Shown in pieces: positions 395 through 7,142 of a stretch of 32,981 nucleotides of DNA. Below the pieces are notes generated by a model. The model was not told the DNA's origin. It did not search any database and saw nothing but the letters and a program-made list of their open reading frames with translations. The DNA is from Muribaculaceae bacterium (GTDB lineage: Bacteria > Bacteroidota > Bacteroidia > Bacteroidales > G3-4614): positions 1-32,981 of the forward strand of contig JAFYRT010000021.1 of NCBI GenBank assembly GCA_017546805.1, read 5' to 3'. The translations under genes and the position numbers were made by a program. The number at the start of each line of letters is the position of its first letter. Within the stretch, counting starts at the first letter, position 1.

Positions 395-988
395 CTATTC
401 TTTTATTCCAAGTTCTTCTATTAATTTTCCCATTTCAGTATATATGAAGTTATAATTTGAATCATCCCTTGATGCAATAGATTTCTTTGAATTTTCTATG
501 GCTCTTTTAAGACAGCCTCCATTTTTCTTGAATAATCCATGTAAGGAATGTTTTCCTAGAAATTTGTCAGATACATCATATCCACATTTATGTTTTAACC
601 AAGTTTTTAAACCATCGTTACTCTTTAATGCGGTTGAATATTCAAAATAATAGTAAAAGAATACTTCAATAGAGGGAAATGATTCGTAGAAGTATACTTT
701 ACAATTTGTCCCATATAGCTTGTTAGAGATTGTTTTATTATGAAATTTGTTTTTGAGTTCTCTATATTTGGGGTTGTTAACCTTGTTATCCATATCTATA
801 AGACAGTGAATTTTTGTATACCCTTCATTTGCATATTTTCTTATAGCCCTATCTAATTCGTCTAAATTATAAGGTTTTAGTTTCATGTGTGAAGGTTTTG
901 TCTTTAAGACATCTCGCATAGATTCCATGTAATACTTTTCAGTAATACCTTCCCCAATAAAAATCTCTATATCTCTTAACTTTTTCAT
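395..988 (-). CDS. rloB: RloB-like TOPRIM-type protein
   Basis: This is the small partner of the AAA ATPase upstream. An acidic set typical of TOPRIM folds is visible: IGEGITEKYY near residues 12-20 (Glu in GEGITE), then LIDMD with Asp-x-Asp about 50 residues later, then a hydrophobic ESFPSIEVFFYYYF stretch matching the S-N-P-x-F-E-x-W-F segment of RloB proteins. RloB-type proteins sit next to RloA ATPases near type I restriction genes. Related ATPase/TOPRIM pairs (OLD, GajAB, PARIS) act in phage defence, so nucleic acid cleavage is a reasonable but unproven role. ATG at 988 lies 2 nt past the rloA stop; an in-frame GTG at 997 would overlap rloA. The two are almost surely translationally coupled. 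The length of 197 aa is normal. Confidence 0.8.
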   Translation of the reverse strand: MKKLRDIEIFIGEGITEKYYMESMRDVLKTKPSHMKLKPYNLDELDRAIRKYANEGYTKIHCLIDMDNKVNNPKYRELKNKFHNKTISNKLYGTNCKVYFYESFPSIEVFFYYYFEYSTALKSNDGLKTWLKHKCGYDVSDKFLGKHSLHGLFKKNGGCLKRAIENSKKSIASRDDSNYNFIYTEMGKLIEELGIKE

Positions 989-990
989 AG

Positions 991-2271
991 TTAACACTCT
1001 TTTATGAAATCTAAATATGCTGAACCTAAATCTGGTTTTGCTCCCAATCTGCCAATTTTATATGCATGATAAAGTGATAGATTTTTGTGTAATCCCATAT
1101 CGCTTACTCGAGTATATAATGATGTTGCACTTGACTTCTCCTTATCTACTAGATACACCATATCTCTGCGAATAAACTCCTCCTCTAATAATAATATATT
1201 ATGAGTAGAGAAGAAAAGCTGTGATTGCTCAGAATTGTGTAGCATTAGTGCAATATAATATGTCATTAAATCGTAGTGCATACGATTTCCCAACTCGTCA
1301 AAGAAGTAGATATGATTCTCTCTAACCATATCATACAAGTAATCCATTAGTTCTGTAAATCTTTTTGTTCCATCAGATTGAAAAGCAGAACGAATTTCAA
1401 AATCGCCATTGTCTGAGTGGTTAGTAAAAGAAACATCGTTCAAACGGATGAATTTTTCCTCATCAGGCAATGATGACTGTTTGATTAATTCAACATATTC
1501 AGATGACATATTGCTTGAATTATCGACAATAGACATATTTGTAATATTAAAGTCTGCTTTATTAAGAAGATTTAGATAAAACTCTTTTTTGAGATTGTCT
1601 TTACATACATTATTAATTTCTGCAACCATTGATTTCCCAGCACCATCGCCATTAATATTATGAATTCTTCTTCTAACCCAATTAAATAAGTGCATAATTT
1701 TTGAGGCGTCATCATTTAATGAAACCTTCGCAATTGTACTGAGTACAGTGTGATTGTTGAAAGTAGCATCTTTTATTGAAGTTTGTGTTTTTGCAGACAT
1801 TTCCAATGTTTTACCAAACCTAATATTTGGACGCTTATCTATTCCTACATACTCACGATAATAAAAATCTGCCTCGTTTCTTGTAGGGTTGTATGTTAAT
1901 TTTTCTCTTATGATATGTGTTTTGCAATATGATACTTCATAATTGAATTTAATACCATCTTTATAGAAAGTAACTTCCATACATGTTGGTTTATCATCCT
2001 GTAAAGCAAAGGGTGTATAATGAATTATACTATTTTGTTTATCGTATGTAGGTATGCATAAAAGATTGAATAATGCATCCATTGCATATAGTATATTTGA
2101 TTTACCAGAGGCATTTGCTCCATAGAAGACACTAAGTTTATTAATAAATACATTTGGTTTAACCTCAACCGTAAGTAAGTCTCTATTGGTTTTGTCTTTT
2201 GTTGCCTCAAAACTTATAGTTTGCTTATCCCTAATAGATAAAAAATTCTCAACAGAAAACGAATGTATCAT
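991..2271 (-). CDS. rloA: RloA-like AAA family ATPase
   Basis: A 426-aa P-loop ATPase of the AAA_15/AAA_21 (ABC/SMC-like) type. The N-terminus MIHSFSVENFLSIRDKQTI is the usual first strand of such proteins. Walker A GANASGKS is at 51-58, a signature-like QSDGTKRF at 298-305, Walker B IYFFDEL at 321-327 and the H-loop STHN at 355-358. The roughly 240-residue insert between Walker A and the signature has no recognised domain. All ATPase motifs look intact, so the gene is probably functional. It is the first gene of a two-gene unit with rloB and probably senses or gates the TOPRIM partner, by analogy with GajA and AriA systems. A -7 element TACTTTTG (2306-2313, minus) gives a leader of about 30 nt. 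Confidence 0.85.
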   Translation of the reverse strand: MIHSFSVENFLSIRDKQTISFEATKDKTNRDLLTVEVKPNVFINKLSVFYGANASGKSNILYAMDALFNLLCIPTYDKQNSIIHYTPFALQDDKPTCMEVTFYKDGIKFNYEVSYCKTHIIREKLTYNPTRNEADFYYREYVGIDKRPNIRFGKTLEMSAKTQTSIKDATFNNHTVLSTIAKVSLNDDASKIMHLFNWVRRRIHNINGDGAGKSMVAEINNVCKDNLKKEFYLNLLNKADFNITNMSIVDNSSNMSSEYVELIKQSSLPDEEKFIRLNDVSFTNHSDNGDFEIRSAFQSDGTKRFTELMDYLYDMVRENHIYFFDELGNRMHYDLMTYYIALMLHNSEQSQLFFSTHNILLLEEEFIRRDMVYLVDKEKSSATSLYTRVSDMGLHKNLSLYHAYKIGRLGAKPDLGSAYLDFIKEC

Positions 2272-2305
2272 AATATCAAATTTTTATTATATAGTATATG
2301 TATGA

Positions 2306-2313
2306 CAAAAGTA
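2306..2313 (-). promoter_or_regulatory. Probable -7 promoter element for rloA-rloB
   Basis: On the minus strand this reads TACTTTTG, matching the Bacteroides -7 consensus TAnnTTTG. A clear TTTG is not seen at the expected 19-21 base distance (only ATTG nearby). Transcription would start near 2301, about 30 nt before the rloA start codon. Confidence 0.5.
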
Positions 2314-2823: not shown

Positions 2824-3855
2824 TTACTTTGTTTTCATTGACTTCTTTATTTCATCTGCGACAAGTTCCTGTAACTTGTTTTTGGGTAGCAAATATTGAT
2901 ATTCGGCAACGCCAATTGGTTTGTTAATATCTTGTAGAGCCAATTCTACATCCAGATGGTCTTTTTCGGCACATAAGATGATTCCGATAGATGGATTTTC
3001 ATCGGGAGCCTTTTCTATCTTATCCAGCAGGGATAGGTAGAAGTTCATCTTACCTACATATTCGGGTTTGAATTCGCCAATCTTCAATTCAATGGCAACC
3101 ATAGAACGGAGTCGGCGATGGAAAAAAAGTAAGTCAACACGATACTCCTTATCGTTAAAGGTCAGTGTATGCTGATTACCGATAAAACTAAAACCGCTAC
3201 CCAGTTCCATTATAAAGGTTGTGATTTTCTGAACAAGACGACGTTCCAACTCCAACTCTTTCAATGGTTCAACTGCATCAATGAATCCAAGATTATAACT
3301 ACTGCGGAACACTTCATTGGCGTAATCAGCTTGCTGAGCAGGCAATGTAGAGTCAAAGTTGTTGGACTTCTCTACTGCTTGTATTGAAAGGTGGTATTCG
3401 GACTTCAATGCGTGATTTAACATATCTCGAGACCATCCTTTTGCATATACTTCGTTAGCGTAGAATACGATATATTCAGGAGGCAAATCATAACTCATAA
3501 GGAGTAGATTATGGCTCCATGGCAAAACTGCTACAGCCTGTTGCACTTTTATATCGTATTGACAATAACGAAGATAAAAGCGTTTCATATTCCATAGGTT
3601 TCTTGGAGATAATCCCATGTCGGGATACTTTGTTTTCAAATCTATGGATAGTCTCTTTACGATACTATCGCCATGCTTGCTGTCAACCTTTCTCTCGTCT
3701 AGCAACTTACCTATCTCCCAATAGGAAGACATCGCAATAGTATTCAATTGTTTTGCTATACGTAATCGAGAAGTTTCAATTACTGCTACAGCCTGTTGCA
3801 GTAATTCATTGTAATCTTCTTCGCTGAATGGTCTTGAAACGGTTAAATCCTTCAT
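2824..3855 (-). CDS. YhcG/DUF1016 PD-(D/E)XK nuclease family protein
   Basis: A 343-aa protein with the two parts of the YhcG (DUF1016) family. The N-terminal helical DUF1016_N region covers about 15-160, with SYWEIGKLL and VAVLPWSHNLLLM. The C-terminal PD-(D/E)XK nuclease-like region covers about 190-335, with the catalytic series Asp241 (YRVDLLFF) and Glu256-x-Lys258 (AIELKIGEFKPE). The length is typical and the active-site residues are intact. Family members sit in defence islands and mobile elements and are thought to be nucleases; the natural target is unknown. ATG at 3855 follows a TACCTTTG element by about 30 nt. A 19-bp DNA repeat occurs twice in the gene (3527-3545, 3782-3800), both coding QQAVAV. 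No terminator is seen after the stop. Confidence 0.85.
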   Translation of the reverse strand: MKDLTVSRPFSEEDYNELLQQAVAVIETSRLRIAKQLNTIAMSSYWEIGKLLDERKVDSKHGDSIVKRLSIDLKTKYPDMGLSPRNLWNMKRFYLRYCQYDIKVQQAVAVLPWSHNLLLMSYDLPPEYIVFYANEVYAKGWSRDMLNHALKSEYHLSIQAVEKSNNFDSTLPAQQADYANEVFRSSYNLGFIDAVEPLKELELERRLVQKITTFIMELGSGFSFIGNQHTLTFNDKEYRVDLLFFHRRLRSMVAIELKIGEFKPEYVGKMNFYLSLLDKIEKAPDENPSIGIILCAEKDHLDVELALQDINKPIGVAEYQYLLPKNKLQELVADEIKKSMKTK

Positions 3856-4478: not shown

Positions 4479-4484
4479 TTTCGG

Positions 4485-4571
4485 TACCCGGAGCGGGACT
4501 TGAACCCGCACAGCCGTATTATAGCCAAAGGATTTTAAGTCCTTCGTGTCTACCGATTCCACCATCCGGGC
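4485..4571 (-). tRNA. tRNA-Leu (anticodon TAA)
   Basis: An 87-nt class II tRNA. The acceptor GCCCGGA pairs with TCCGGGT (G1-U72 wobble), the D arm has TGGTGGAATCGGTAGACA, and the anticodon stem-loop GGACTTAAAATCC gives TAA. A long variable arm follows, then the T arm GCGGGTTCAAGTCCCGC. The discriminator is A and the next bases are CCG, so the CCA end is not fully encoded and must be added. The 3' end borders the accessory strip at lower coordinates. Confidence 0.95.
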
Positions 4572-4579
4572 GAAACCAT

Positions 4580-4655
4580 TGGAGCGAAAAACGGGACTCG
4601 AACCCGCGACCCTAACCTTGGCAAGGTTATGCTCTACCAACTGAGCTATTTTCGC
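4580..4655 (-). tRNA. tRNA-Gly (anticodon GCC)
   Basis: A 76-nt tRNA including an encoded CCA (4580-4582). The acceptor GCGAAAA pairs with TTTTCGC, the D arm reads AGCTCAGTTGGTAGAGC, the anticodon stem-loop ACCTTGCCAAGGT gives GCC, and the T arm is CGCGGGTTCGAGTCCCG. It is the first tRNA of the unit, with 8 bases between it and tRNA-Leu, so they share a precursor. Confidence 0.95.
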
Positions 4656-4749: not shown

Positions 4750-4874
4750 CTGTGTGCTTATGGTTTTGATTTATAGCTGTATATGCTTATTTTGTGTTGC
4801 TAAATTTACTGTTTTGCGAATACCCCGTTATTTTTATATATTTGCTTTTTCTTTATACTATATATAACATAATA

Positions 4875-7142
4875 ATGAAGAGAGTATTTGTTTTAATATT
4901 ATTGAGTCTGTTTGTAAAGACAGTTTCGGCAAGCGGTTTGGTAGACTATGTCAATCCGCTAATGGGAACAGAGTCGACATACAGTTTTTCGCATGGCAAT
5001 ACATATCCTGCGGTGGCAGTGCCTTGGGGGTTGAACTTTTGGTCGCCTCAAACAGGCGAAAACCGCAATGGATGGATGTATGCATCAACCGATACCGTTA
5101 TCAGGGGCTTTAAGCAGACTCACCAGCCAAGTCCGTGGATTAATGACTATGCAGTGCTGTCGGTTATGCCTCTAAGCGGGGAATTGAAGTTGAACCATAA
5201 AGATAGGGGAGTGGGTTTCTCTCATAATAACGAGGAGGTGCATCCCTACCTATACTCGGTTACTATGGATAATGGGGTAAAGGTTGCGCTTACGGCTTCG
5301 CGAACATCATCGGTTATGGAGGTTGAATACCCTTCGCTCGATGGGCAATATTTTGTGATAGATGCTCAACATGGCGGTTGCAAGGTGGATATTGACCAAA
5401 TGCGACGCAGGGTTACGGGTTATGTAAAGAATCACAATGGCGGAGTGCCTGCAAACTTTACAAACTATTATGTAATGGAGTTCAGCCACCCTATTGCAGA
5501 AAAGGGTGTGATGATTAACGACTTTTTGTTTGCCGGCAGGAGTGTTGGAGAACACGACAGAGTGTGCGGATATTTGCGTTTTATTATACCCGAAGGGGAG
5601 AAACTTACAGTTAAAATATCATCTTCGTTTATCTCTCCCGAACAGGCTCAACTAAACTTCTCTCGCGAGGTAAAGAATAAGAGCTTTGACGAGGTAAAGG
5701 AGAGTTCCGTATCGCAATGGAATTCGCTATTGGGTAGAATAGTGGTTGAGGACGACGATGAGGAGGCAAAGCAAACCTTCTATTCTTGTCTATACAGGGT
5801 GTTGCTATTTCCACGTGAGTTCTATGAGTATGATGCCGATGAAGCTCCATTCTACTACAGCCCTTATGATGGGGAGATTCACGATGGTTATATGTACACC
5901 GATAATGGCTTTTGGGATACTTTCCGAGCCGTTCATCCGCTGTTTACATTGCTCTATCCCGAGGTGTCGGAGAGAGTGATGCAATCGCTTGTAAATGTCT
6001 ATTCCGAGAGTGGTTTCTTGCCTGAATGGGCTTCGCCCGGACATCGCGGATGTATGATTGGCAACAACTCGCTGTCGTTAATAGCCGATGCCTATGTAAA
6101 AGGGATAAGGGGCTTTGATACAGAAAAGGCACTTCAAGCAATGGTGCATCAAACCGAGACACAGGGCGAACCGCTGTCTGTTGGTCGTAATGGATATCAA
6201 GAGTATTTTTCTTTGGGATATGTGCCATACCCCGACTATTACGAGGCAACAGCCAAGACCCTTGAGTATGCCTATGCCGATTGGTGTTTGTCTGCCTTTG
6301 CTTCGGAGTTGGGTAGAGCGGATATAGCTTCTGACTACGAATCCACTTCATATAATTATCGCAACCTGTTCGATAAATCGTATGGTTTTATGCGCGGAAA
6401 AACTCGAAGTGGCGAATGGGTATTCCCGTTCTCACCCGAAGAGTGGGGAGGACCTTTCACCGAAGGTTCGTCATGGCACTACACATGGAGTGTTATGCAC
6501 GATGTTGAGGGTTTGTCGCAACTTATGGGAGGCCACGAAAATATGACCTTCTTACTCGATTCAATGTTTAACGCACCACCTCTCTTTAACTATGGAACAT
6601 ACGGATTTGTAATTCACGAGATTGCCGAAATGGTGGCACTTGATATGGGGCAATATGCACATGGCAACCAACCTGTGCAACATGCGGCATACCTCTATGA
6701 CTATACCCTTTCGCCGTGGAAAACACAATACCATGTGCGCGAGATAATGGACAGATTATACAAACCCACACCCGACGGATATTGCGGTGATGAGGATAAC
6801 GGACAAACATCGGCTTGGTATGTATTTAGTGCAATGGGCTTCTATCCTGTATGTCCCGGACGTGCCGAATATGCCATAGGCTCTCCGTTGTTTGACAAAG
6901 TTACCTTGAATATGCCAACAGGCAAAAGTTTTACTATCTTTGCAGCCGAAAACAAAGCAGAAAACGTATATATCAACTCTGCGAAGTTGAATCAAAAGAG
7001 ATATACCAAAAACTACATACTTCACTCCGATATAGTAAACGGAGGAGAGATAAAATTTGAGATGTCGAATAAACCAAATCTTAAAAGAGGAGTCGAAGTG
7101 ACAGATGCACCAACATCACTGACCAAAGTCTCTAAAAAATAA
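4875..7142 (+). CDS. GH92 family alpha-mannosidase, secreted
   Basis: A 755-aa glycoside hydrolase of family 92, which removes alpha-linked mannose (often 1,2) from N-glycans or yeast mannan using calcium. An N-terminal signal peptide (MKRVFVLILLSLFVKTVSA) points to export, without a lipobox. The GH92 start VDYVNPLMGTES and the HGNTYPAVAVPWG segment are present. Probable catalytic acid Glu530 lies in FTEGSSWHYTW, and the base-side acids are in GDEDNG (638-643), matching the spacing known from B. thetaiotaomicron enzymes. The C-terminal beta part AIGSPLFDKVTLNMPTG is intact. A GTG at 4794 is in frame, but ATG at 4875 puts the signal peptide first. A GH97-type domain protein follows after 57 nt on the same strand. 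No SusC/SusD pair is nearby. Confidence 0.92.
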   Translation: MKRVFVLILLSLFVKTVSASGLVDYVNPLMGTESTYSFSHGNTYPAVAVPWGLNFWSPQTGENRNGWMYASTDTVIRGFKQTHQPSPWINDYAVLSVMPLSGELKLNHKDRGVGFSHNNEEVHPYLYSVTMDNGVKVALTASRTSSVMEVEYPSLDGQYFVIDAQHGGCKVDIDQMRRRVTGYVKNHNGGVPANFTNYYVMEFSHPIAEKGVMINDFLFAGRSVGEHDRVCGYLRFIIPEGEKLTVKISSSFISPEQAQLNFSREVKNKSFDEVKESSVSQWNSLLGRIVVEDDDEEAKQTFYSCLYRVLLFPREFYEYDADEAPFYYSPYDGEIHDGYMYTDNGFWDTFRAVHPLFTLLYPEVSERVMQSLVNVYSESGFLPEWASPGHRGCMIGNNSLSLIADAYVKGIRGFDTEKALQAMVHQTETQGEPLSVGRNGYQEYFSLGYVPYPDYYEATAKTLEYAYADWCLSAFASELGRADIASDYESTSYNYRNLFDKSYGFMRGKTRSGEWVFPFSPEEWGGPFTEGSSWHYTWSVMHDVEGLSQLMGGHENMTFLLDSMFNAPPLFNYGTYGFVIHEIAEMVALDMGQYAHGNQPVQHAAYLYDYTLSPWKTQYHVREIMDRLYKPTPDGYCGDEDNGQTSAWYVFSAMGFYPVCPGRAEYAIGSPLFDKVTLNMPTGKSFTIFAAENKAENVYINSAKLNQKRYTKNYILHSDIVNGGEIKFEMSNKPNLKRGVEVTDAPTSLTKVSKK

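Follow-up and report, generated by a model that had tools for sequence, protein, structure and literature searches.

An intact AbiL-type (RloA-RloB) gene pair beside tRNA genes in a Bacteroidales genome, predicted to act in anti-phage defense

Two coupled genes near one end of a gut Bacteroidales contig, one encoding an ATPase and the other a small nuclease-like protein, raise the question of which known family they belong to, whether both are maintained, and what the smaller protein would attack if set free. We examined them within the window, that is, the whole stretch of 32,981 nucleotides analyzed, and compared them with related loci, structure models, and published systems.

Identity and limits of the gene pair

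The genes form a two-gene operon on the minus strand. The first, rloA (abiLi; 991-2271, minus strand), encodes an ABC-type (OLD/PtuA/Rad50-like) ATPase of 426 aa, and the second, rloB (abiLii; 395-997, minus strand), encodes a small TOPRIM-type, nuclease-like putative effector of 200 aa when read from a GTG or 197 aa when read from an ATG. Both assignments draw on reading frames, Pfam, PADLOC, motifs, and structure models. With both reading frames intact and their motifs conserved, the original prediction of an intact RloA-RloB ATPase/TOPRIM pair was borne out. Its 2-nt coupling fits the ATG start at 988, which leaves a gap of 2 nt after RloA, and not the 200-aa frame, whose GTG start at 997 creates a 7-nt overlap.

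RloB matched the Pfam family RloB (PF13707) with E = 2.7e-18, above the family cut-off, while RloA matched AAA_21 (E = 4e-24) and also AAA_15; these E-values for RloB and AAA_21 indicate that the motifs described below are not due to chance. PADLOC assigned RloA to AbiLi (E 6e-62) and RloB to AbiLii (E 9.6e-13), which identifies the system as AbiL. Both AbiL profiles are thus matched by adjacent, coupled genes in the ATPase-then-effector order of AbiL, and relatives are arranged alike. Judged by sequence, the pair is an intact, ordinary member of the known AbiL-type (RloA-RloB) family. AbiL has been known since 1999, and its name (AbiLi/AbiLii) was overlooked in the original prediction. The description of RloAB as little characterized holds for its mechanism only, since AbiL is a named and experimentally studied system (PMC10440598, PMC3985639).

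DNA comparison delimits a cassette block at 215-2426 that is common with the sister species (G004/L059) at 87% identity. A separate promoter for the pair is plausible: a putative -7 element, TACTTTTG, lies at 2306-2313 on the minus strand and follows the Bacteroides pattern TAnnTTTG, with a TTG about 20 nt further upstream at 2334-2336. The element reads TAATTTTG in the sister species, where TAnnTTTG is kept and one N position differs. A terminator belonging to the cassette is likewise probable, as a conserved stem-loop occurs downstream of rloB at about 324-353 on the minus strand (z = -3.5 for the stretch 300-394), although it has no clean U-tract and is absent from the list produced by the terminator scan.

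RloA is an ABC-type ATPase

RloA carries a Walker A motif (G51-A-N-A-S-G-K57-S), a signature (S299-D-G301-T302), a Walker B motif (D325-E326), H332, and an H-loop histidine, H357. An alignment of 41 RloA proteins shows little or no variation at these residues, which confirms the complete ATPase motif set previously described; the numbering given for RloA Lys57 and RloB Glu16 is also correct. The structure model (pLDDT 86.8) has as its best characterized neighbors Rad50 (Z 19.8) and retron PtuA (Z 19.4, aligned over residues 1-413). Motifs and fold together place RloA among the OLD/PtuA/Rad50-like ABC-type ATPases. The 240-residue insert that had been regarded as not assignable turned out to be part of a continuous PtuA/Rad50-like fold, and this middle region contains E123, R139, and D240, again invariant or nearly so across the 41 proteins. 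A sequence search of the PDB with the single RloA and RloB proteins gave no match.

RloB carries a predicted two-metal TOPRIM site

Across 110 RloB proteins, the conserved residues include E16 (98/110), E20 (107/110), D68 (110/110), D70 (99/110, with Glu in the other 11), and E111 (105/110), and position 109, a serine here, is most commonly C or S. In the model (pLDDT 90.5), E16 lies just past strand 1, whereas D68 stands where a strand ends and E111 where a helix begins. The two-metal residues of Bp OLD are E400, E404, D455, D457, and T506-x-E508, with E508 in a helix (PMC6755086), and the RloB set E16-x3-E20, D68-x-D70, and S109-x-E111 follows the same order and context. RloB therefore carries the full residue set predicted for a two-metal TOPRIM enzyme. 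The TOPRIM-like Glu and Asp-x-Asp named in the original prediction correspond to the conserved metal-A residues E16 and D68-x-D70; the present analysis adds E20 and E111 as the metal-B residues.

Comparisons of fold were less specific. The top structural match of the RloB model was the uncharacterized protein PH0156 (Z 8.8), and the nearest characterized neighbors were OLD C-terminal regions, with a Z of 7.1 for Bp OLD and of 6.5 for Xcc OLD. The former value lies within the common-fold range, and other, unrelated alpha/beta folds score up to Z 6.2. Foldseek returned no PDB match to the model below E 0.001, a PDB search with the RloB profile yielded chance matches only, and AriB was absent among the structural matches listed, an absence that excludes nothing. 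A weak hhalign alignment of RloB with the OLD TOPRIM domain (E 0.004, probability 3%; RloA control 0.2) brought the EGxTE and DxD motifs into register, and an HHpred link between RloB and OLD_TOPRIM has been published independently (PMC10440598). Motifs and fold, neither sufficient on its own, together make a TOPRIM domain very likely.

Maintenance and distribution

Relative to the sister species (G004), RloA has a dN/dS of 0.07 and RloB one of 0.14, values that indicate purifying selection on both genes and hence the maintenance of both. Their linkage is equally consistent: an RloA gene stands beside RloB at 29 of 30 RloB loci in the wider Bacteroidota, the single exception being cut by a contig end, and the RloB profile matched at 48 of 60 RloA loci on viral contigs, nearly always immediately downstream. 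RloB was present in 67 of the 395 Bacteroidota genomes sampled, or about one in six, which makes this compact and intact Bacteroidales copy, with its named predicted catalytic residues, a usable test object; it opens no new kind of system.

Homologous pairs are carried by plasmids and prophages. ORF55/56 of the lactococcal prophage proPhi7, annotated as abortive phage resistance, are homologous to both genes and keep the RloB residue set, with 24% identity between RloA and its counterpart, and a Phocaeicola plasmid carries a pair homologous to RloA and RloB adjoining TIR, SIR2, and retron-type genes. In a collection of phage records, RloA matched eight records and RloB had no homologue at E 1e-5.

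Two further loci merit description. In another Bacteroidales genome (L192, 480-6147), RloAB directly adjoins a Gabija-like pair, named from sequence only, that consists of an OLD-like ATPase (673 aa) and a GajB-like protein (559 aa). A weak RloB-like match at G016:C99:6092-6391 falls in a reading frame of 1018 aa, counted with one internal TAA, and may represent an RloA-RloB fusion or a broken gene.

A tRNA-flank hotspot

The cassette is situated on the downstream side of two tRNA genes, tRNA-Leu(TAA) and tRNA-Gly(GCC) (4483-4655, minus strand). All eight congeneric genomes possess this pair, one of them with its tRNA-Leu gene truncated by the end of a contig. What follows the tRNA genes differs from species to species: the sister species (G004, same contig as L002/L059) has RloAB directly and AbiH beyond it, G006 has RhuM, G002 and G005 have other genes, and the present genome has RloAB plus a DUF1016/YhcG nuclease. 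Among the species read, this downstream flank is an integration or turnover hotspot for AbiH, RhuM, DUF1016, and RloAB. The DUF1016/YhcG gene, which encodes a PDDEXK protein (PADLOC candidate PDC-S02) and is located between RloAB and the tRNA genes (2824-3855, minus strand), is missing here in the sister species and therefore represents a separate hotspot unit. A 59-bp remnant at 2633-2691 is 81% identical to the RhuM gene found at the same tRNA flank in G006.

The proportion of silent differences from the sister species is 0.37 in RloA and 0.43 in RloB, compared with 0.77 (saturated) in a glycoside-hydrolase-like flank gene (4794-7142). This smaller silent divergence in the cassette than in its neighbor suggests that RloAB moved horizontally between species. 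Both contig ends (1-214 and 32822-32980) carry an IS-like repeat with the ends TGTCCGATAAAA/TTTTATCGGACA, which has 26 matches in the genome, many of them at contig ends; no transposase was identified for it. Enrichment of defense genes around RloAB was not significant (7/48 vs 0/18, p = 0.18), a crude estimate based on few single-sequence probes.

Proposed mechanism and alternative explanations

The pair is most likely anti-phage, and we favor, with a probability of roughly 0.7, its reading as a chromosomal AbiL-type abortive-infection module. RloA would form dimers or higher oligomers and bind RloB, presumably sequestering it in an inactive state by analogy with PARIS; a phage component sensed by RloA would free or activate RloB, which, as a two-metal TOPRIM nuclease, could cleave host nucleic acid, with tRNA a likelier target than DNA by analogy with AriB, so that growth would stop ahead of phage release. 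Behind this proposal stand the gene pair observed here, its motifs and AbiL profile matches, the conserved linkage, the purifying selection, the hotspot position, and the confident models.

The literature contributes the physiological side. AbiL was isolated for the phage resistance it provides, and in Lactococcus it acts by abortive infection. Homologous RloB/AbiLii proteins are toxic in E. coli (PMC10440598, PMC3985639), and a toxicity-neutralization assay in that host served to validate a Clostridium RloB:AAA pair (PMC10440598). However, Fusobacterium AbiLii was toxic without being neutralized by its AbiLi, and lactococcal AbiLii showed no toxicity in E. coli (PMC3985639), which argues against simple antitoxicity as a general rule. 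A trigger or substrate of AbiL is reported in none of the papers found. In PARIS, an AriA hexamer holds AriB, a phage protein triggers its release, and AriB cuts tRNAs (PMC12409363). On this model, we tentatively suggest that RloB may be a TOPRIM enzyme that cleaves tRNA or other RNA with a specificity of its own and that RloA may set free on detecting a trigger protein, for instance a phage anti-restriction protein. If so, AbiL would join PARIS as a second system of this kind, aimed independently of it, and the present genome would hold it together with a separate PARIS-type fusion.

The same defense pair could instead deploy RloB as a DNA nuclease in the manner of OLD and Gabija, nicking or degrading phage or host DNA upon release by RloA. 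We consider this possible rather than probable: RloB shares its residue set with the OLD nuclease, which cleaves DNA (PMC6755086), and OLD C-terminal regions are the nearest characterized structural neighbors of RloB, but AriB, the closest functional analogue with split genes, cleaves tRNA (PMC12409363), and a spatially equivalent set of residues occurs in RNase M5 (PMC6755086). Since equivalent residues serve both a DNA-cutting OLD enzyme and RNase M5, the residues alone cannot decide the substrate of RloB.

An unlikely alternative is that RloAB, like PARIS, senses anti-restriction proteins and thereby backs up restriction-modification (RM) systems. Type I operons are a known setting of RloB (PMC10440598), and in two of the closest relatives the pair is placed either within such an operon, flanked by HsdS and HsdR (L004), or downstream of a ResIII-domain protein (L003). 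Against this, no RM gene was identified adjoining the window copy, and an RM gene was detected within about 8 kb at 3 of 48 loci in the wider sample, a count that underestimates the association because few single-sequence probes were used; a restriction-guarding role is possible but not general.

Least probable is a toxin-antitoxin module that mainly stabilizes its island or plasmid, with phage defense a side effect or absent: homologous pairs do occur on plasmids and prophages, and a homologous RloB:AAA pair acts as toxin and neutralizer in E. coli (PMC10440598), but AbiL was isolated for phage resistance, neutralization failed for Fusobacterium AbiL (PMC3985639), and RloB went undetected in six of the eight congeneric genomes, so the cassette is not strongly self-retaining.

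Comparison with known systems

The original prediction likened the layout to PARIS and OLD and proposed an anti-phage role; the resemblance of the ABC-ATPase/TOPRIM-type pair was rightly judged, and the role is probable. The fold of RloA is close to PtuA of Septu and retron PtuAB systems (Z up to 19.4). The partner differs from that of Septu, as RloB is of the TOPRIM type and neither Pfam nor PADLOC gave an HNH match, and no retron was identified with RloAB.

OLD nucleases and GajA of Gabija combine the TOPRIM residues E, E, DxD, and [T/S]xE with an ABC ATPase, as RloAB does. In RloAB, however, the domains are split over two genes and no GajB helicase is adjacent. Class 1 OLD was accordingly rejected, as the ATPase and TOPRIM-type parts lie on separate genes rather than in a single polypeptide, and Gabija was rejected because the two parts are not fused and the pair is flanked by the DUF1016/YhcG protein on one side and the contig-end repeat on the other.

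PARIS (AriA/AriB) likewise joins an ABC ATPase to a separate TOPRIM-type effector, and the logic of restraint and release is likely the same. Membership in PARIS was rejected, since RloB belongs to PF13707 and its Pfam matches do not include DUF4435 (PF14491). In this genome, DUF4435 was found only on contig C60, where a 529-aa protein (L184, 691-2280; G000) carries both ATPase motifs and DUF4435 on a single chain; it represents a PARIS-type fusion separate from RloAB.

Compared with lactococcal AbiL, the present pair is distant in sequence, chromosomal, and located beside tRNA genes in a member of the Bacteroidales. With AbiL of Lactococcus lactis and the RloA/RloB pairs of type I restriction loci, it shares the two-gene order, the AbiL profiles, the ATPase motifs, and the effector residues.
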